A stretch of DNA of 64,000 nucleotides from Phaeospirillum sp. (GTDB lineage: Bacteria; Pseudomonadota; Alphaproteobacteria; Rhodospirillales; Magnetospirillaceae), in the NCBI GenBank assembly GCA_030651575.1, contig JAUSFB010000030.1:186001-250000 (forward strand), given 5' to 3'. Position 1 is the stretch's first letter, and each line of letters opens with the position of its first letter. The position numbers and the translations under genes are program-made. The notes beneath the pieces were generated by a model, which saw only the letters and a list, made by a program, of their open reading frames with translations, searched no databases and was not told the DNA's origin. This document shows positions 36,409 through 43,703 of the stretch, piece after piece.

Positions 36409-36544
36409 CCCCACCACATCCAGCAGTCATCCTTGCGCTCTCCACGATCCGTGGTATGATTCCCGCCCTTCACGGCTTTGGTTTTCGTCAAGGGGGGGAG
36501 GTGCCGGTGTCCCTAAGCAGAGTTCCTGACAGGTCGCGCAGCTC

Positions 36545-38554
36545 ATGCTGATCGCGGCCGCCCTATCCGCCTTATTGGCCCTCGCCGTGCTCGGCGTGCT
36601 GGCCGGGGGTGAGATGTGGCGGCATCGCGTCGTCTATTTCTGCTGCGCTTTGGCCAGTCTGGCCCTGCTGATCGGCGGGTTGAAGCATCTGGGCCAGACG
36701 CCGGGAACCGGCCCCGCCATTGTCCTTCCCATCGGCCTGCCCTGGATGGCGGCCCATTTCCGCCTCGACAACCTGTCGGCGCTGTTCATGGTGATCGTCA
36801 ATCTGGGGACGGCGGCGGCCTCGGTCTATGGCATCGGCTATTGCTCCCATCTGCCCGAGCCCCGGCGGGTGACGCCGTTCTTTCCGTTGTTCCTGTTCGG
36901 CATGAACGCGGTGCTGATCGCCGACGACGCTTTCATGTTCCTGGTGTCGTGGGAGTTCATGTCGCTGGCCTCGTGGCTGCTGGTGCTGGCCGATCACAAG
37001 AATCCCGAGAACCGCTCGGCCGCCATGGTTTATCTGATGATGGCGGCGTTCGGAACCTTTTGCCTGCTGACCTGTTTCGGCCTGCTGGCCGGGCCGGAGG
37101 GGGCCTACTCCTTCCCCGCCATGCGCGGCGGCGTGCTGGAGCCCATGACCGGCTTCCTGGTGGTGCTGCTGGCGGTGCTGGGGGCGGGGTCGAAGGCGGG
37201 GCTGGTGCCGTTGCACGCTTGGCTGCCGCTGGCCCATCCGGCGGCGCCCAGCCATGTCTCGGCGCTGATGAGCGGCGTCATGACCAAGGTGGCGCTGTAC
37301 GGTCTGATCCGCATCCTGTTCGACCTGCACGGCCATGTGGCCTGGGGCTGGGGAGCGGCGCTGATGGTGATCGGCGGCATCACCGCCGTGATGGGGGTGC
37401 TGTACGCCATTTTGCAGGACGATCTGAAAAAGCTGCTGGCCTATTCCACCGTCGAGAATATCGGGGTGGTGGTGATCGGTCTGGGGCTGGCGCTGGCCTT
37501 CAAGGATAGCGGCGAAAAGACCCTGGCGGCGCTGGCGCTGGTGGCCGGCCTGTATCACATGCTGAACCACGCCATCTTCAAGACGCTGCTGTTCCTGTCG
37601 GCCGGGGCGGTGATCACCGCCACCGGCGAGCGCGATCTGGGCAAGCTGGGCGGGCTGTTGAAGCGGATGCCGTGGACGGGGGCCGCCACCCTGGTGGGGG
37701 CGGCGGCCATCTCGGCTCTGCCGCCCCTGAACGGCTTCGTGTCGGAATGGCTGATCTTTCAGTCGCTGTTCAAGGGGCCGGGACTGCCCCACTGGACCAT
37801 GAAGTTCGGCGTGCCGGTGGTGGGCGCCATGCTGGCGCTGGCGGCGGCGCTGGCGGCGACCTGTTTCGTGCGGGCCTATGGCATCGCTTTCCTGGGGCGG
37901 CCGCGGTCCGCTGCTGCTGCGGCGGCTCATCGCCTGCCGGCTTCCATGCGCTGGACCATGGCGATGCTGGCGGTGTTGTGCATCGTCTTGGGCGCCATCC
38001 CGGTGACGGTGACCGACGCCCTGTCCGGGGTGGTTCAGCCGCTGACCGGGGTTCACTTCGCGGTGTCGGCCGACCTGGGTTGGCCGTGGCTGTCGCCGGT
38101 GAGTTCGACGCGCGGTTCGTACTCCGGCACTGTACTGGTGATGACCGGTCTGTCGCTGTTCGTGATCAGTATCTTGCTGGTGCACGGGTTCGGCACCACC
38201 AAGGTCCGTCGGGCCGACGCCTGGGATTGCGGCCATGCCGAGGACATTCCCGAGACCCAGTATACCGGGCAAAGCTTTGCCCAGCCCCTGCGCCGGGTGT
38301 TCTGCTCCTCGCTGTTCGCCGCCCGCGAGACGGTGGACATGCCCGAGCCGGGCGATCAGTCGCCGGCCCGCCTGACGGTGCGGGTGATCGACCCGATCTG
38401 GACCTACCTGTATCTCGGCATCCTGCGGGTGGTGGACGCCATCGCCGACCGGGTCAACCGCATGCAGTTCCTGACGGTGCGGCGCTATCTGCTGATGATG
38501 TTCGCCACCTTGGTGTTCATGCTGCTGGTGGTGGCGGCGAGGCAGCAGAAATGA
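36545..38554 (+). CDS. HyfB-type (NuoL/antiporter-like) subunit of an Ehr-type complex
   Basis: 669 residues, about 16 membrane segments, with the antiporter-like core (FLVSWEFMSLASWLLVL; GSKAGLVPLHAWLPLAHPAAPSHVSALMSG; LKKLLAYSTVENIG) that carries the conserved Glu and Lys residues of ion-translocating subunits. The long C-terminal part (ADAWDCGHAEDIPETQYTGQSFAQPLRRVF, in segments) is characteristic of hydrogenase-4 subunit B rather than NuoL. It heads a six-gene operon and probably moves protons or Na+. The start ATG at 36545 has only a weak ribosome site. Stop overlaps the next start. Confidence 0.9.
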   Translation: MLIAAALSALLALAVLGVLAGGEMWRHRVVYFCCALASLALLIGGLKHLGQTPGTGPAIVLPIGLPWMAAHFRLDNLSALFMVIVNLGTAAASVYGIGYCSHLPEPRRVTPFFPLFLFGMNAVLIADDAFMFLVSWEFMSLASWLLVLADHKNPENRSAAMVYLMMAAFGTFCLLTCFGLLAGPEGAYSFPAMRGGVLEPMTGFLVVLLAVLGAGSKAGLVPLHAWLPLAHPAAPSHVSALMSGVMTKVALYGLIRILFDLHGHVAWGWGAALMVIGGITAVMGVLYAILQDDLKKLLAYSTVENIGVVVIGLGLALAFKDSGEKTLAALALVAGLYHMLNHAIFKTLLFLSAGAVITATGERDLGKLGGLLKRMPWTGAATLVGAAAISALPPLNGFVSEWLIFQSLFKGPGLPHWTMKFGVPVVGAMLALAAALAATCFVRAYGIAFLGRPRSAAAAAAHRLPASMRWTMAMLAVLCIVLGAIPVTVTDALSGVVQPLTGVHFAVSADLGWPWLSPVSSTRGSYSGTVLVMTGLSLFVISILLVHGFGTTKVRRADAWDCGHAEDIPETQYTGQSFAQPLRRVFCSSLFAARETVDMPEPGDQSPARLTVRVIDPIWTYLYLGILRVVDAIADRVNRMQFLTVRRYLLMMFATLVFMLLVVAARQQK

Positions 38555-39498
38555 ACGCAGTTTTGGGGCAGCTGGGGCAGATTTTCCTGGTGGTGGCGCT
38601 GGCGCCGCTGATCACCGGCTGGGTGCGCCTCGTCAAGTCGCGGCTCAACGGCCGGATCGGGGCTTCGCCGCTGCAACCCTACCGCGACATCTACCGCCTG
38701 CTTCAGAAAGAGGCGATCGTGGCGCATTCGGCGTCCTGGGTGTTCCGGGCCGCGCCCTATGTCACCTTTGCCGCGGTATGGCTGGCGGCCTGCATCATTC
38801 CGACCTACACCACCAATATGTTCCTGGCCCCCGCCGCCGATCTGATCGCCCTGGTGGCGTTGCTGGGGGTGGCGCGGTTCTGGACGGCGTTGGCCGGCAT
38901 GGATGTGGGCACCGCCTTTGGCGGCCTGGGGGCGTCGCGCGAGATGATGATCGCGTCCTTGGCCGAGCCGGCCATGCTGATGGTCAGCTTTTCGCTGTCG
39001 CTGATCTCGGGGACCACGTCGCCGACTCAGATCATCGTCTTCATCCTAGACGGCGGCGTCGGAATCGAGGTTTCCATGGGGTTGGCGCTGGTGGCGCTGA
39101 TCATGGTGGCGGTTGCCGAGAACGGCCGCATTCCCATCGACAATCCCGCCACCCACCTGGAACTGACCATGGTGCACGAGGCCATGGTGCTGGAGTATTC
39201 CGGCCGCCATCTGGCGCTGATGGAGGGGGCCGGCATGGTGCGCTTGACCCTGTTCATGGCCCTGATCGGCGGTATTTTCGCGCCTTGGGGCATCGGGGTG
39301 CCGGGGACGGGAGCGGCGGGGGCCTTGGTGGGGCTTGGCGCCTTCCTGGCCAAGTGTTTCGTGCTGGCGACGGCGCTGGCCTTTTTCGAGACCGCGATCG
39401 CCAAGATGCGGGTGTTCCGCTATGCCGACTTCCTGGGCGGCGCGTTGCTGCTGGGCCTGCTGGCCACCATCTTCTTGTATGTCTCGGAGGCGGTGTGA
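38551..39498 (+). CDS. HyfC/HycD-type (NuoH-like) membrane subunit
   Basis: 315 residues, about eight membrane segments. NuoH family: RLVKSRLNGRIGASPLQPYRDI at the cytoplasmic loop and AENGRIPIDNPATHLELTMVHEAMVLEYSG, the acidic stretch that in complex I and group 4 hydrogenases links the peripheral arm to the membrane arm. Begins ATGA-overlapped with the hyfB-like gene and ends TGATG-overlapped with the next. The acidic residues are retained, so coupling is plausible even though the large subunit lacks a NiFe site. Confidence 0.92.
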   Translation: MNAVLGQLGQIFLVVALAPLITGWVRLVKSRLNGRIGASPLQPYRDIYRLLQKEAIVAHSASWVFRAAPYVTFAAVWLAACIIPTYTTNMFLAPAADLIALVALLGVARFWTALAGMDVGTAFGGLGASREMMIASLAEPAMLMVSFSLSLISGTTSPTQIIVFILDGGVGIEVSMGLALVALIMVAVAENGRIPIDNPATHLELTMVHEAMVLEYSGRHLALMEGAGMVRLTLFMALIGGIFAPWGIGVPGTGAAGALVGLGAFLAKCFVLATALAFFETAIAKMRVFRYADFLGGALLLGLLATIFLYVSEAV

Positions 39499-40166
39499 TG
39501 CCCATCAGCCAGCTTTCCTACGAGATGGCCCATCTGATCGGCGCGGCGGTGCTGATGGCGGGGTTTCAACTGTTGTATCAGCGCCGCCTGTTCGCGGTGC
39601 TCAACACCTTCGCGTTCCAGGCGGTGGCGCTGGCGGCGGCGGCGGCGTGGCAGGCCCATATCCAAAATGCGCCGCATCTTTACATCACCGCCGGGCTGGC
39701 GCTGGTGTTCAAGGCGATGATCGTGCCCTTCGCGCTGCACTGGCTGGTGGAGAAGCTGGGGATTCACCGCACGGTGGAGACCGCCATGTCCATCGGCTGG
39801 ACCATGATGGCCGGGGTGGCGCTGGTGGCGCTGTCGATCTTGCTGGTGCTGCCGGTGACGGTCAACGCGGCGGCGCTGACCCGCGAGAGTCTGGCCCTGG
39901 CCATGAGCGTGGTTCTGCTGGGTCTGCTGATGATGATCACCCGGCACAATGCGGTGACGCAGGTTGTCGGTTTCATGGCGCTGGAAAACGGGCTGATTCT
40001 GGCGGCGGTCTCGGCCAAGGGGATGCCGCTGGTGGTGGAAATTTCCATCGCCTTTTCGGTGCTGGTGGCCATGACCCTGTTCGGGATCTTCTTTTTTCGG
40101 ATCCGCGAGCGGTTCGACACGCTGGACCTCAACGATCTCGAAACCTATCGGGGTGACCGGCAATGA
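39498..40166 (+). CDS. HyfE-type (NuoK-like) membrane subunit
   Basis: 222 residues, about seven membrane segments, ending in a cytoplasmic tail RERFDTLDLNDLETYRGDRQ typical of HyfE. The conserved Glu in VVGFMALENGLIL corresponds to the NuoK proton-path Glu. The start overlaps the previous stop by one base; the stop overlaps the next start by four. Confidence 0.88.
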   Translation: MPISQLSYEMAHLIGAAVLMAGFQLLYQRRLFAVLNTFAFQAVALAAAAAWQAHIQNAPHLYITAGLALVFKAMIVPFALHWLVEKLGIHRTVETAMSIGWTMMAGVALVALSILLVLPVTVNAAALTRESLALAMSVVLLGLLMMITRHNAVTQVVGFMALENGLILAAVSAKGMPLVVEISIAFSVLVAMTLFGIFFFRIRERFDTLDLNDLETYRGDRQ

Positions 40167-41653
40167 TCGCCCAGATCCTGGCCTTGCCCGGGTTCGACAA
40201 TCCGCTGCTGTGGATCCTCGGCGTGCCGCTGGGGTCTGCCGGTTTTTTGGCGGTACTCAAGGAGTGGCGGGTGGCGACCTGGGTCAATGTGGGGGCCTCG
40301 GGCATCACATTCGCCTCGTCGCTGCTGTTGCTGGAGCGGCGGCCGGAGCCGACCCGGCTGCTGTTCATTGACGACTTCAATATCTATCTGGTGGTGCTGA
40401 CCTCGTTCATCGGATTGACCACGGCGGTGTTTTCCGCCGCCTATATTGCGCGGGAAACCGAGGCCAACCGCCTGTCCGACCTGCATCTGCGTTTTTACCA
40501 CTCCATGTATCAGGCCTTCCTGTTCACCATGCTGCTGGCGCTGACCGCCAACAACACCGGAGTGATGTGGGTCTCGGTGGAGGCGGCGACCCTGACCACC
40601 GTGCTGATGGTCAGCCTGTACCGCACGCGCGAGGCCATCGAGGCGGCGTGGAAGTATTTCATCTTGTGCTCGGTGGGGATCGGGCTGGCGCTGTTCGGCA
40701 CCATCTTGGTCTATCTGGCGGCCCAGCCGGTGATGGGCGACGGCGCCGACGCCATGGCCTGGACGCTGATGATCAAGCGGGCGCATAGTTTTCAGCCTGA
40801 TCTGCTCAATCTCGCCTTCGTCTTCGTGCTGGTGGGCTATGGCACCAAGGTCGGTCTGGCGCCGCTGCATTCCTGGCTGCCCGACGCCCATGCCGAGGGG
40901 CCGACGCCGATTTCGGCGGTGCTGTCGGGGTTGCTGCTCAACGTGGCGCTTTACGCCCTGCTGCGTTTCAAGATGTTGATTTCGGCCAATGGACAGGCCC
41001 TGACGCCGGGGCCGCTGCTGGTGATGATGGGGCTGTCGTCGCTGTTCCTGTCGGCGTTCATGCTGTACCGGCGCGGCGACATCAAGCGGCTGTTCGCCTA
41101 TTCCTCCATCGAGCATATGGGGGTGATCACCTTCGCTTTCGGCATGGGCGGGCCGCTGGCCAATTTCGCGGGCCTGATGCATATGACCATGCACTCGCTG
41201 ACCAAATCGGCCATCTTCTTCGCGGTCGGCATCATCAGCCAGAACGCCGGCACCAAGCGCATCGCCGATATCCGGGGGTTGACCAGTTCGCATCCGGTGC
41301 TGGGCTGGGGCTTTGTCCTGGCGGTGCTGGCCATCGCCGGACTGCCGCCCATGGGCGTGTTCATGAGCGAGTTCCTGGTGGTCAGCTCGACCTTCGCCCG
41401 TCAGCCGCTGCTGGCGATTCCGCTGGTTCTGGGACTGCTGCTGGCATTCGGGGCGCTGGTCAGCCGGTTGCAGATGATGGCGTTCGGCGAGCCGCCCAAG
41501 GTGGCGCATGCCCACGGCAACGCCTCGACCGTGTCCAGCATCCTGGCCTTGACGCCGCTGTGGGTTCATATGCTGCTGGTGCTGGTCGCCGGCCTGTACC
41601 TGCCCAAGGAACTGGTGACTTGGTTCCAATCGGTGGCGAGGTACTTGGGATGA
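40163..41653 (+). CDS. HyfF-type (NuoN/M-like) antiporter subunit
   Basis: 496 residues, about 14 membrane segments. Conserved elements: MWVSVEAATLTTVLMVSLYRT (Glu in the fifth helix), GYGTKVGLAPLHSWLPDAHAEGPTPISAVLSG (Lys) and DIKRLFAYSSIEHMGV. It is the second antiporter-like subunit of the complex. A third (HyfD-type) subunit is absent from the operon. ATGA overlap at both ends. Confidence 0.9.
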   Translation: MIAQILALPGFDNPLLWILGVPLGSAGFLAVLKEWRVATWVNVGASGITFASSLLLLERRPEPTRLLFIDDFNIYLVVLTSFIGLTTAVFSAAYIARETEANRLSDLHLRFYHSMYQAFLFTMLLALTANNTGVMWVSVEAATLTTVLMVSLYRTREAIEAAWKYFILCSVGIGLALFGTILVYLAAQPVMGDGADAMAWTLMIKRAHSFQPDLLNLAFVFVLVGYGTKVGLAPLHSWLPDAHAEGPTPISAVLSGLLLNVALYALLRFKMLISANGQALTPGPLLVMMGLSSLFLSAFMLYRRGDIKRLFAYSSIEHMGVITFAFGMGGPLANFAGLMHMTMHSLTKSAIFFAVGIISQNAGTKRIADIRGLTSSHPVLGWGFVLAVLAIAGLPPMGVFMSEFLVVSSTFARQPLLAIPLVLGLLLAFGALVSRLQMMAFGEPPKVAHAHGNASTVSSILALTPLWVHMLLVLVAGLYLPKELVTWFQSVARYLG

Positions 41654-43170
41654 TGGGCAACATCACCTTGTTGGAGTTCCTGTCCGTCGGCCAGCCGGTG
41701 GCGGAGCATCGGCCGTTCCCGCGCTTTCGGCTCGACAGCCGGGCCTGGCGGGCGATGGTCGGGCAACTGGCCGTAGCCGAGTGGTCGGTGATGGCCATGT
41801 GGGGCGAGCCGGACGAGGTTCATCTGGCGTTGCGCGACGAGGAGACCAACGACATCGCGGTGGTGTCGCATCCCTGCCCGGAGCATCGCTATTATTCCCT
41901 GGCGCGGGCGCGGCCCAGCGCCATCCGGCTGGAGCGGGCCATCCACGACCTGTGGGGGCTGGCGCCATTGGGGGTGGAGGATCGCCGGCCGTGGCTGGAT
42001 CACGGGCGCTGGCCCCGGCGGCACCCGCTGGCGGCGCATTCGCTGCCGCCGGCCGAGGCTCCGTTTCGCTATGCCTTCCTCACCGCCGAGGGCGACGGCC
42101 TGCACCAGATTCCGGTCGGCCCCGTTCATGCCGGAGTGATCGAGCCTGCGCATTTTCGCTTCCACGCCCAGGGCGAGACGGTGGTACGGCTGGAAGAACG
42201 GCTGGGCTATGTCCATAAGGGCATCTCCGGCCTGCTGTCCGGGACGTCGCTGGATCAGGCGGCGCGCATCGTCGGCAGAGTCTCGGGGGACGCCACGGTG
42301 GCCTATTCGCTGGCCTTCGCCCGCGCGGTCGAAGCCGCCATCGGCTGTGAGATTCCGCCGCGCGCCGTCTGGCTGCGGGCCTTGATGGCCGAGATGGAGC
42401 GCATCGCCAACCATGTGTTCGATATTGGCGCGGTGTGCAACGACGCCGCCTTTGCCATCATGCTGTCCCATATGGGGGTGCTGCGCGAGAAGATCCTGCG
42501 CGCCAACGACGCCATGTTCGGCCACCGCCTGTGCATGGACCGGGTGGTGCCGGGCGGCGTGACCCGCGACCTGGCCGAGGAGGGGGCGGAGGCGGTGAAA
42601 CATCTGCTCTACGGTTTCCGCAAGGACTTCGAGCGGGCCTTCCAGATGTACGAGAACACGCCGTCGCTGTCCGACCGCACCTTGGGGACCGGCATCGTCC
42701 CGACCTCGCTGATTCACCGGTTCGGTGCCGGCGGTTTTGTCGGACGCGCCTCGGGACGCGGCCAGGATGCCCGCCGGGCGCCGGGCTATCCCCCTTATCA
42801 ACACCTGGACCTGACGGTGCCGGCCTATGCCGAGGGCGACGTCAACGCCCGCCTCGCGGTGCGGTTCGACGAGGTCCGCGAGAGCCTGCGCCTGATCGGC
42901 CGCATTCTGACCGAAATGCCGGGGGGCTCGTTTTGGGTGCCGCCGCCCCATATGGCCGGGGAAGGGCTGGCGGTGGCGGAAAGCTTTCGGGGCGAAGTGG
43001 TGGTCTGGGTCCGCATGGCCGAGGATGGCGGGGTCGAGCGTTGCCACCCCCATGACCCGTCCTGGTTCCAGTGGCCGCTGTTGGAAGCCGCCATCGAAGG
43101 CAACATCGTCGCCGACTTCCCGCTGTGCAACAAGTCGTTCAACTGTTCCTATTCGGGACATGATCTATGA
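41650..43170 (+). CDS. HyfG/HycE-type large subunit lacking NiFe-binding cysteines
   Basis: 506 residues. N-terminal NuoC-like domain (about 10-125) fused to a NuoD/hydrogenase-large-like domain, as in HycE and HyfG. In group 4 hydrogenases the NiFe centre is held by two CxxC motifs, RVCGICG and DPCxxC. Here the first reads RVSGDAT (residues 210-216), with neither cysteine. The second reads FNCSYS (497-502), with only the first Cys (499) kept, seven residues before the end. A NiFe centre cannot be bound in the usual way, so this is not a hydrogenase. The retained LGYVHKGISGLL and MERIANHVFDIG match the complex I quinone-cavity side. Overlaps both neighbours. Confidence 0.9.
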   Translation: MMGNITLLEFLSVGQPVAEHRPFPRFRLDSRAWRAMVGQLAVAEWSVMAMWGEPDEVHLALRDEETNDIAVVSHPCPEHRYYSLARARPSAIRLERAIHDLWGLAPLGVEDRRPWLDHGRWPRRHPLAAHSLPPAEAPFRYAFLTAEGDGLHQIPVGPVHAGVIEPAHFRFHAQGETVVRLEERLGYVHKGISGLLSGTSLDQAARIVGRVSGDATVAYSLAFARAVEAAIGCEIPPRAVWLRALMAEMERIANHVFDIGAVCNDAAFAIMLSHMGVLREKILRANDAMFGHRLCMDRVVPGGVTRDLAEEGAEAVKHLLYGFRKDFERAFQMYENTPSLSDRTLGTGIVPTSLIHRFGAGGFVGRASGRGQDARRAPGYPPYQHLDLTVPAYAEGDVNARLAVRFDEVRESLRLIGRILTEMPGGSFWVPPPHMAGEGLAVAESFRGEVVVWVRMAEDGGVERCHPHDPSWFQWPLLEAAIEGNIVADFPLCNKSFNCSYSGHDL

Positions 43171-43703
43171 TTCCCCCGATCAGCAAGATTCTATTCCGCC
43201 ATCTGGTCAAGGGGCCGCACACCATGCGCAATGTGCCGCCCCCCGATCCGGATGGGTCGGAGGAACTGGCCCGCGCCCTGGGCGAGACGGTGCGCGCCCG
43301 GCTGGGGCGCTCGCTGTCGATCCGCGAGGTGGATGCCGGGTCGTGCAATGGCTGCGAGCTGGAGATTCACGCCGTCAACAATCCGGTCTACGACCTGGAG
43401 CGTTTCGGCATCCGGTTCGTCGCCAGCCCCCGTCACGCCGATGTTTTGCTGGTGACCGGCCCGGTCACCGTCAACATGGCCGAGGCGCTACGGCGGACCT
43501 ACGAGGCGACGCCGGGTCCGAAATGGGTGGTGGCCATGGGCGACTGCGCCCGCGACGGCGGCTGCTTCGCCGGCTCCTACGCGGTGGTCGGCGGCGTGCA
43601 TGCGGTGGTGCCGGTGGATCTGCACATCCCCGGCTGTCCGCCCAGCCCAAAGCAGATCCTGGCCGGGCTGCTGGCCCTGCTGGACTCCGTCGCGGCAAAG
43701 TAG
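43167..43703 (+). CDS. HyfI/HycG-type (NuoB-like) 4Fe-4S small subunit
   Basis: 178 residues. The four ligands of the proximal 4Fe-4S cluster are intact: Cys60 and Cys63 (SCNGCELEI), Cys127 (GDCARDGG) and Cys157 (PGCPPSP). It should sit against the altered large subunit and pass electrons to whatever replaces the NiFe site. No 8Fe ferredoxin subunit (HyfA/HyfH/HycF type) is encoded nearby, so the electron donor is unknown. It is the last gene of the operon; the 34-base gap after it has no evident terminator. Confidence 0.92.
   Translation: MIPPISKILFRHLVKGPHTMRNVPPPDPDGSEELARALGETVRARLGRSLSIREVDAGSCNGCELEIHAVNNPVYDLERFGIRFVASPRHADVLLVTGPVTVNMAEALRRTYEATPGPKWVVAMGDCARDGGCFAGSYAVVGGVHAVVPVDLHIPGCPPSPKQILAGLLALLDSVAAK

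Follow-up and report, generated by a model that had tools for sequence, protein, structure and literature searches.

An energy-converting-hydrogenase-related (hyq-type) membrane complex without NiFe ligands in a Phaeospirillum genome, tentatively read as a ferredoxin-quinone ion pump

The window analyzed here is a stretch of 64,000 nucleotides from a Phaeospirillum sp. genome (assembly GCA_030651575.1, contig JAUSFB010000030.1), and its subject is an operon of six open reading frames (ORFs) at 36545-43703 on the plus strand, with an overlap at every junction (Table 1). An initial annotation had described them as Hyf/Nuo-like subunits with all junctions overlapping, and both the coordinates and the Pfam matches agreed with that description. 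The gene order hyfB-hyfC-hyfE-hyfF-hyfG-hyfI, the single-domain HyqI and the HyqG without CxxC motifs mark a hyq-type operon. No hyfA, hyfD, hyfH or hyp gene was found among the six. The earlier remark that hyp genes, HyfD and an 8Fe ferredoxin were missing held within the operon, but the absence of hyp was only local: a separate contig of the genome (4.2 Mb, 87 contigs) encodes HypD, NifD is present in the genome too, and no fewer than four large subunits bearing both NiFe motifs are encoded elsewhere in it. Six distinct genes in the same order on one strand were retained in 70 of the 80 relatives fetched, the other ten being loci of 3.6-13.4 kb, and the ratio of nonsynonymous to synonymous substitution rates (dN/dS) was 0.06-0.34 for the six genes in four comparisons, a sign of purifying selection. 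Because the order is kept and dN/dS is this low, the reality of the operon is far beyond chance. It was present in all 16 other searched genomes of the window's genus; the nearest named HyfG matches (75-79%) were Magnetospirillum, Paramagnetospirillum, Phaeospirillum and Terasakiella records.

Table 1. Features of the hyq-type operon and its upstream region (window coordinates).
Feature	Position	Strand	Evidence
Putative sigma70-like promoter TTGCGC-N16-TATGAT	36433..36460	+	pattern TTGC[GA][AC]-N15-17-TATG[AC]T
hyfB/hyqB, antiporter-like (NuoL type), 669 aa	36545..38554	+	PF00361 1e-52; NF005086 hydrogenase 4 subunit B 854 bits, over cut-off
hyfC/hyqC, NuoH-like membrane anchor, 315 aa	38551..39498	+	PF00146 4.9e-34
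hyfE/hyqE, NuoK/NuoJ-like small membrane subunit, 222 aa	39498..40166	+	NF008556 1.2e-23, below cut-off; PF00420 weak, under cut-off
hyfF/hyqF, second antiporter-like subunit, 496 aa	40163..41653	+	PF00361 1.5e-51; NF005043 hydrogenase 4 subunit F 828 bits, over cut-off
hyfG/hyqG, NuoCD/HycE-like large subunit without NiFe ligands, 506 aa	41650..43170	+	PF00346 3.9e-37; ligand columns S212, A215, S500, G503
RVSGDAT in place of RVCGICG, HyfG 210-216	42277..42297	+	alignment with HycE
HyfG C-terminus CNKSFNCSYSGHDL, residues 493-506, in place of DPCxxC; last residue on HycE Arg537	43126..43167	+	alignment
hyfI/hyqI, NuoB-like small subunit, one 4Fe-4S site (C60, C63, C127, C157), 178 aa	43167..43703	+	PF01058 9e-36

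The four cysteines that bind the NiFe site in E. coli HycE (Cys241, Cys244, Cys531 and Cys534) aligned with Ser212, Ala215, Ser500 and Gly503 of HyfG, whose score against PF00374 (25.6 bits) was just under the cut-off of 25.8. The RVSGDAT and FNCSYS (residues 497-502) motifs noted earlier were both borne out; the cysteine of the latter, Cys499, aligned with HycE Pro530, off the ligand positions. Cysteines at the NiFe positions, which the initial annotation had named as evidence against its own claim, were present in none of 120 rows, three of which repeat others. The four ligand columns held S81, S69/A12, S79/A2 and G81 in the 81 close rows (the window and 80 relatives), and S117/A2/V1, S100/A14/M4/T2, S114/A4/N2 and G120 in all 120. 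D214, K495, S496, F497, G503, D505 and the canopy residue Arg447 were invariant throughout, and N494, N498 and E165 were kept in 119 rows. The signatures SGD and NKSFN-SY-GxD are thus near-invariant across the class, showing that the site is not decaying. HyfG ends on the column of HycE Arg537, the HycI protease site, with 0 residues beyond it in the 120 rows (81 + 39), whereas HycE runs 32 residues further. Since three other group-4 hydrogenase rows end at the same column, the missing tail alone proves nothing. Residues 182-537 of HycE form its hydrogenase part, and HyfG Arg447 corresponds to Arg478, named there as a canopy residue (PMC9474812; the literature is cited throughout from the portions available); E165 corresponds to E21 of MbhL, a proton residue of the membrane-bound hydrogenase MBH (PMC7684303).

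Sprecher et al. 2012 (PMC3357923) reported HyqG of eight genera as lacking both CxxC motifs and described Cys258, 491 and 497 as "completely conserved". The absence of both motifs was confirmed here on far more rows than in that paper. However, the corresponding columns 263, 493 and 499 held cysteine in only 113, 107 and 106 of the 120 rows, and the claim of complete conservation fails in the wider class: INKSFNL or TNKSFNL replaces the cysteine-bearing motif in copies from Burkholderia, Variovorax and Rhodococcus, and six of the 81 close rows have FNG and one INKSFNC. With the three cysteines not universal, a cysteine-bound metal is no universal feature of the class. The complex is not an ordinary NiFe hydrogenase. 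Among close relatives HyfG was also the least conserved of the six proteins (78-79%, against 83-95% for the others). Catalytic subunits are usually the better-conserved ones, and this pattern is the reverse.

The assignment to the energy-converting-hydrogenase-related (Ehr) class, proposed in the initial annotation, was supported. Ehr complexes are defined by group-4-like subunits with missing NiFe ligands (PMC6349859, PMC10284858, PMC13194489), and the operon encodes a group-4-type large and small subunit and antiporter-like subunits, with all four ligands missing. A large-subunit phylogeny, suggested at the same time, was run on 64 rows and left unrooted. The window grouped with Terasakiella and Magnetospirillum rows, and a branch with 100/99 support separated 44 of the 46 Hyq-type rows from the HycE/HyfG and NuoD rows and from three further Ehr-like rows. 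The exceptions are unsafe placements: the Ehr-like rows G098 and G351 fall inside, with a branch length of 5.09, and the Hyq-type rows L094 and L095b fall outside. Because the tree is unrooted, the loss of the NiFe site stated in the initial annotation stands as an inference beside ancestral absence. Published Ehr (Geobacter, comammox Nitrospira, Margulisbacteria) spans several lineages, and other Ehr-like rows here bear other motifs. Large subunits of four genomes (G021, G022, G098 and G351; loci L217, L218, L221 and L222) likewise lacked the ligands and carried RVSGVGS or RINA/RINAL; these are apparently separate Ehr subclasses.

The best sequence match in the PDB was the E. coli hydrogenase-4/formate hydrogenlyase type (7z0s, E 8e-54), which has homologues of HyfB, C, E, F, G and I. 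However, E. coli HyfG/HycE has four ligands and a 32-residue tail, and HyfA, D, H and J stand beside HyfG; none of these was found in the window operon. The four Cys ligands and C-terminal extension of a group 4 NiFe hydrogenase are therefore missing, as is Hyp in many carriers. In NuoCD/NuoB of complex I the ligands are likewise absent and the C-terminal end is the same as in HyfG, but complex I has an NADH module, NuoI, His/Tyr quinone ligands and adjacent cysteines in Nqo6 (PMC7684303), which the window operon does not.

The window operon is orthologous to hyq of Azorhizobium caulinodans, and its kind was already known, with the missing CxxC motifs in print since 2012. The hyqRBCEFGI "endo-hydrogenase" genes of that species (PMC2650096, PMC2930871, PMC3357923; PLoS ONE 2009, 2010 and 2012) are described as encoding the same six subunits in the same order; the likeness is known from the published description. 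The HyqG of A. caulinodans has 504 aa and Cys258, 491 and 497, with no CxxC motifs according to PMC3357923. The copy of Rhizobium leguminosarum 3841 (now R. johnstonii), a species named as a hyq carrier in the Azorhizobium work, also has 504 aa, with Cys at 259, 491 and 497. HyqG was taken for a NiFe subunit in 2009 (PMC2650096), a role judged uncertain or even unlikely in 2012 (PMC3357923). The six-gene operon was deleted and assayed in A. caulinodans, with H2-linked phenotypes (PMC2650096, PMC2930871, PMC3357923). Nodule H2 evolution was 27.0 umol per g per h in a hup/hyq double mutant and 0.30-0.36 in the wild type and single mutants. In cultures held below 1 uM O2, H2 evolution was 7,100 pmol per 10^9 cells per min for the wild type, 61,000 for hupSL, 2,600 for hyq, 14,000 for hyq hupSL and 56,600 for nifK hupSL (both sets from PMC2930871, PMC3357923). 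The initial annotation had called electron donor and acceptor unknown, which was fair, but it overlooked the published deletion and assay, the H2 phenotypes and the absence of the CxxC motifs. No paper joining the names hyq and Ehr was found in the literature searched, which excluded most subscription journals.

A sample of 398 genomes of the phylum yielded 76 with a match, of which 63 were of the Hyq class (62 at E <= 1e-100 plus one contig-end fragment, G203); 13 weaker matches, ten HycE-like and three of family f34, were dropped. For the match, nifD and FixC counts in this sample, scoring covered the three or four top first-look candidates of each genome. The NiFe(CN)2CO cofactor needs HypD. 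INDEPENDENCE from Hyp was evident in the sample outside the window's order, in which HypD was absent in 39 of 59 carriers and present in 20. Among carriers at least 90% complete with at most 5% contamination, HypD was absent in 26 of 44 and present in 18; three good-quality carriers without it (G198, G274 and G344) are single-contig. Family f61 contributed 31 of the 59 (nine with HypD), and among the other 28 HypD was present in 11 and absent in 17. By contrast, HypD was found in 13 of 13 control genomes with group-4-NiFe-type matches. Seven of these were assigned by reading the motifs and six from identity and matched range; G029 and G035 belong both to this set and to the carriers. With 39 of 59 carriers lacking HypD, against 0 of 13 controls, the Hyq/Ehr complex needs no NiFe(CN)2CO cofactor. 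HypD was present in 33 of 36 carriers among the window's relatives, which weighs against Hyp independence.

One carrier, a Rhodospirillaceae draft genome of 0.95 Mb with about 33% G+C (from 845 kb; G027), had no detectable complex I. When it was searched with 44 E. coli proteins (two partial) by tblastn at E <= 1e-4, no match was obtained for NuoA, NuoE, NuoF, NuoG, NuoH, NuoI, HyfA, HyfH, HypB, GltA, SucA, CydA, CyoB or RsxA-D, nor for PflB, FocA, AckA, Pta, AceE, AceF, Lpd, Ndh, FrdC, FrdD, UbiB or part of PFOR. AtpA, AtpB, AtpD, SucC, UbiE, SdhA/FrdA and SdhB/FrdB were matched, with a weak PflA-like match. Family searches of the same draft genome returned no COX1-family, NuoF-family, HypD or NifD match; its 791 ORFs held no FeFe motif and one loose NiFe-like pattern, in an ORF of 198 aa. 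The six genes span the ends of contigs C5 and C21, with hyfC split and the junction outside the assembled sequence, and NuoB and NuoCD occurred beyond them only as fragments on C5. FixA-, FixB-, FixC- and FixX-like genes stand in a row on C27, all below curated cut-offs; fumarate-reductase-like genes were read from the sequence of C2 and glpABC-like genes from that of C16. Because this genome keeps the six genes with no match for NuoE, F, G or I, NuoI and the NADH module seem dispensable for the complex. The genome is a candidate for a minimal anaerobic electron chain, and the organism may, at a guess, be a gut symbiont.

All 78 aligned rows have cysteine at C60, C63, C127 and C157 of HyfI, the four cluster cysteines pointed out in the initial annotation, and the CxxC spacing is that seen in hydrogenases. 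In the membrane arm, charged residues were kept in at least 95% of rows: E137, K217 and K248 of HyfB (69 rows), E140, K229, K348 and E403 of HyfF (76 rows), and charged residues of HyfC (73 rows). Two distant relatives, copy 2 of a Variovorax plasmid (L095 1021-3236) and a Mycobacterium branderi plasmid (L235 7788-10103), carry 4Fe-4S domains fused N-terminally to the NuoB-like subunit, which hints at what carries electrons in the wider Ehr-like class.

We tentatively favor, at somewhat less than even confidence, a reading of Hyq/Ehr as an ion pump with electron transfer between quinone and a soluble carrier of low potential. The complex would be a minimal complex-I-like redox-driven pump, with HyfI providing the single electron-carrying cluster and a differently built cavity at the place of the NiFe site. 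Ferredoxin or flavodoxin would dock directly at HyfI, electrons would move between this carrier and the membrane quinone pool, and HyfB, HyfF and HyfC would couple the flow to movement of H+ (or Na+); the complex would probably be reversible, its direction set by the membrane gradient. Ferredoxin or flavodoxin is our best guess for the carrier because of the 4Fe-4S fusions, the rnf genes beside the operon in two loci of one genus (L236, L237; genomes G092, G323), the FixABCX-like genes in G027, which has no NifD match, and the presence of FixC in 9 of 36 carriers against 0 of 24 others among the relatives. The quinone partner is suggested by the gene content of G027 and by homology.

Several observations weigh against this reading. 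A ferredoxin-quinone pump leaves the hyq-dependent H2 uptake and evolution of Azorhizobium unexplained. FixC was found in only 7 of 63 phylum carriers (8 of 335 others) and in 0 of 17 genomes of the window's genus, and FixABCX was rejected as a general partner. The eight annotated plasmid loci shared no constant neighbor, except a helix-turn-helix (HTH) gene directly upstream in four. A ferredoxin motif occurred in 0 of 78 HyfI-like ORFs of close relatives, and the two ferredoxin fusions were found via annotation, in distant long-branch rows. At the quinone site of complex I, the ligands His38 and Tyr87 of Nqo4 are replaced by Ile164 and Gly213 in HyfG, and the canopy Asp529 of HycE by Asn498 (119 of 120 rows), and the canopy Arg447 is kept; loss at the canopy Asp position impairs quinone reduction in complex I (PMC9474812).

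The H2 phenotypes may also be indirect, Hyq shifting the redox poise or the gradient while HupUV, nitrogenase or an uncharacterized source turns over H2; this is possible, if on the unlikely side. PMC3357923 reports an additional uncharacterized H2 source that accounts for 20% of the double-mutant output, and the tabulated hup strains had only hupSL deleted. However, the effects were large in both nodules and culture and persisted in nifK. We weighted an indirect cause above a new H2 site since no data are shown, in the portions available, for the strains that lack the hup/hyp operon.

It is unlikely that a separate dehydrogenase, such as a borrowed NuoEFG, links the complex to NAD(P)H or another carrier as its soluble partner. 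In L236 and L237 the gene that immediately follows hyfI encodes a Si-specific NAD(P) transhydrogenase, and a NuoF-family match was found in 65 of 66 carriers (62 over the cut-off). The sole exception is G027, which keeps the six genes without a match to NuoE, F, G or I, and no constant dehydrogenase neighbor was seen by eye.

We consider it rather improbable that the complex is an H2:quinone oxidoreductase whose rebuilt cavity provides an H2 site independent of nickel and Hyp. The nodule and culture figures from Azorhizobium argue for it, the proton glutamate E165 is kept in all but one row, and loss of the entire hup/hyp operon is said to be without effect in that species. However, no known H2 cofactor fits, C263, C493 and C499 are missing in part of the family, the whole-cell genetics come from one species, and the hyp-deletion and Rhodocista statements are published without data in the portions available. 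G027, moreover, has the operon with no match to HypD, HypB or NifD and no FeFe motif in its ORFs. The boldest form of this reading, a nickel-free, Hyp-independent H2-active relative of complex I, is highly doubtful; in it, H2 would be both made and oxidized with no NiFe, FeFe or Fe-only cofactor, in a cavity that adjoins the HyfI cluster and is lined by the near-invariant Ser-Gly-Asp and Asn-Lys-Ser-Phe-Asn residues and the free C-terminus.

A non-redox ion transporter or a decaying remnant is very improbable: the operon has no electron-input subunit and the NiFe ligands are absent, but the cluster cysteines are universal in the aligned rows, the site signature is near-invariant, dN/dS is low and the genes are kept in a 0.95-Mb genome. 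The least probable alternative is a sulfur-reducing enzyme like the Pyrococcus furiosus membrane-bound sulfane reductase (MBS), a member of the same superfamily that also lost two of the four ligand cysteines and has a known job, since its chemistry needs a three-cysteine proximal cluster and a shortened loop, and its membrane arm is of Mrp type (PMC7684303), whereas HyfI keeps the CxxC spacing and four cysteines.

This is thus a widespread respiratory-type complex without an agreed reaction. Three papers name the orthologue a hydrogenase from whole-cell genetics, and its sequence contains no known H2 site. Three observations sharpen the conflict: HypD is missing from many carriers, one carrier lacks a working complex I, and two distant relatives have a fused ferredoxin domain. 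Either the hydrogenase label is wrong for what is a ferredoxin-quinone pump, or the H2 chemistry is new. The HypD survey, the non-universal cysteines beside near-invariant SGD/NKSFN-SY-GxD, the gene content of G027 and the ferredoxin-fused distant relatives are new here.

The putative promoter in Table 1 had counterparts within 300 bp upstream of hyfB in nine further loci (10 of 49 with the window), nearly all Magnetospirillum-type, and the pattern had nine matches in 2.6 Mb (both strands) of fetched loci; it was drawn up after several of the loci had been viewed, and the count is hence biased. A generic promoter scan called no promoter. Upstream of hyfB in the window, the 300 bp contained a loose sigma54-like pattern (-228) and a single TTG-N8-CAA (-67). 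TGT-N10-ACA and the FNR box were absent from 49 upstream regions of 300 bp, which carries little weight with 0.5 and 0.07 expected, and an excess of FNR-like motifs in the window (32 versus 10.8, two mismatches allowed) was set aside as not specific. A hyqR-type HTH gene lies upstream in Azorhizobium hyq, whereas none was seen by eye in the window, and control may differ from the NifA control of Azorhizobium.

Among 60 relatives, nifD and the operon occurred together in 30, the operon alone in 6, nifD alone in 5 and neither in 19; without the window's own genus of 17, the counts were 13, 6, 5 and 19 (Fisher p 0.002, kinship ignored). In the phylum sample nifD was over the cut-off in 12 of 63 carriers and 29 of 335 others (p 0.02, kinship ignored). 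Diazotrophy as a common trait of carriers therefore holds only in part. A link to the low-oxygen lxa locus of Burkholderia was rejected, as two papers on the locus yielded no mention of hydrogenase or hyf. By eye, the neighbors in the window were a PAP2-like membrane gene upstream and a response regulator downstream on the opposite strand. In 7 of 80 loci (L046, L047, L049, L060, L064, L066 and L075) a gene judged by eye to encode a SulP-like anion transporter starts 28-241 bp after the operon on its strand; such a gene starts 2.8 kb downstream in one locus and lies upstream in two, with none annotated in the eight plasmid loci. The adjoining loci were Competibacteraceae and related records, and a link to inorganic carbon was dropped as lineage-specific.

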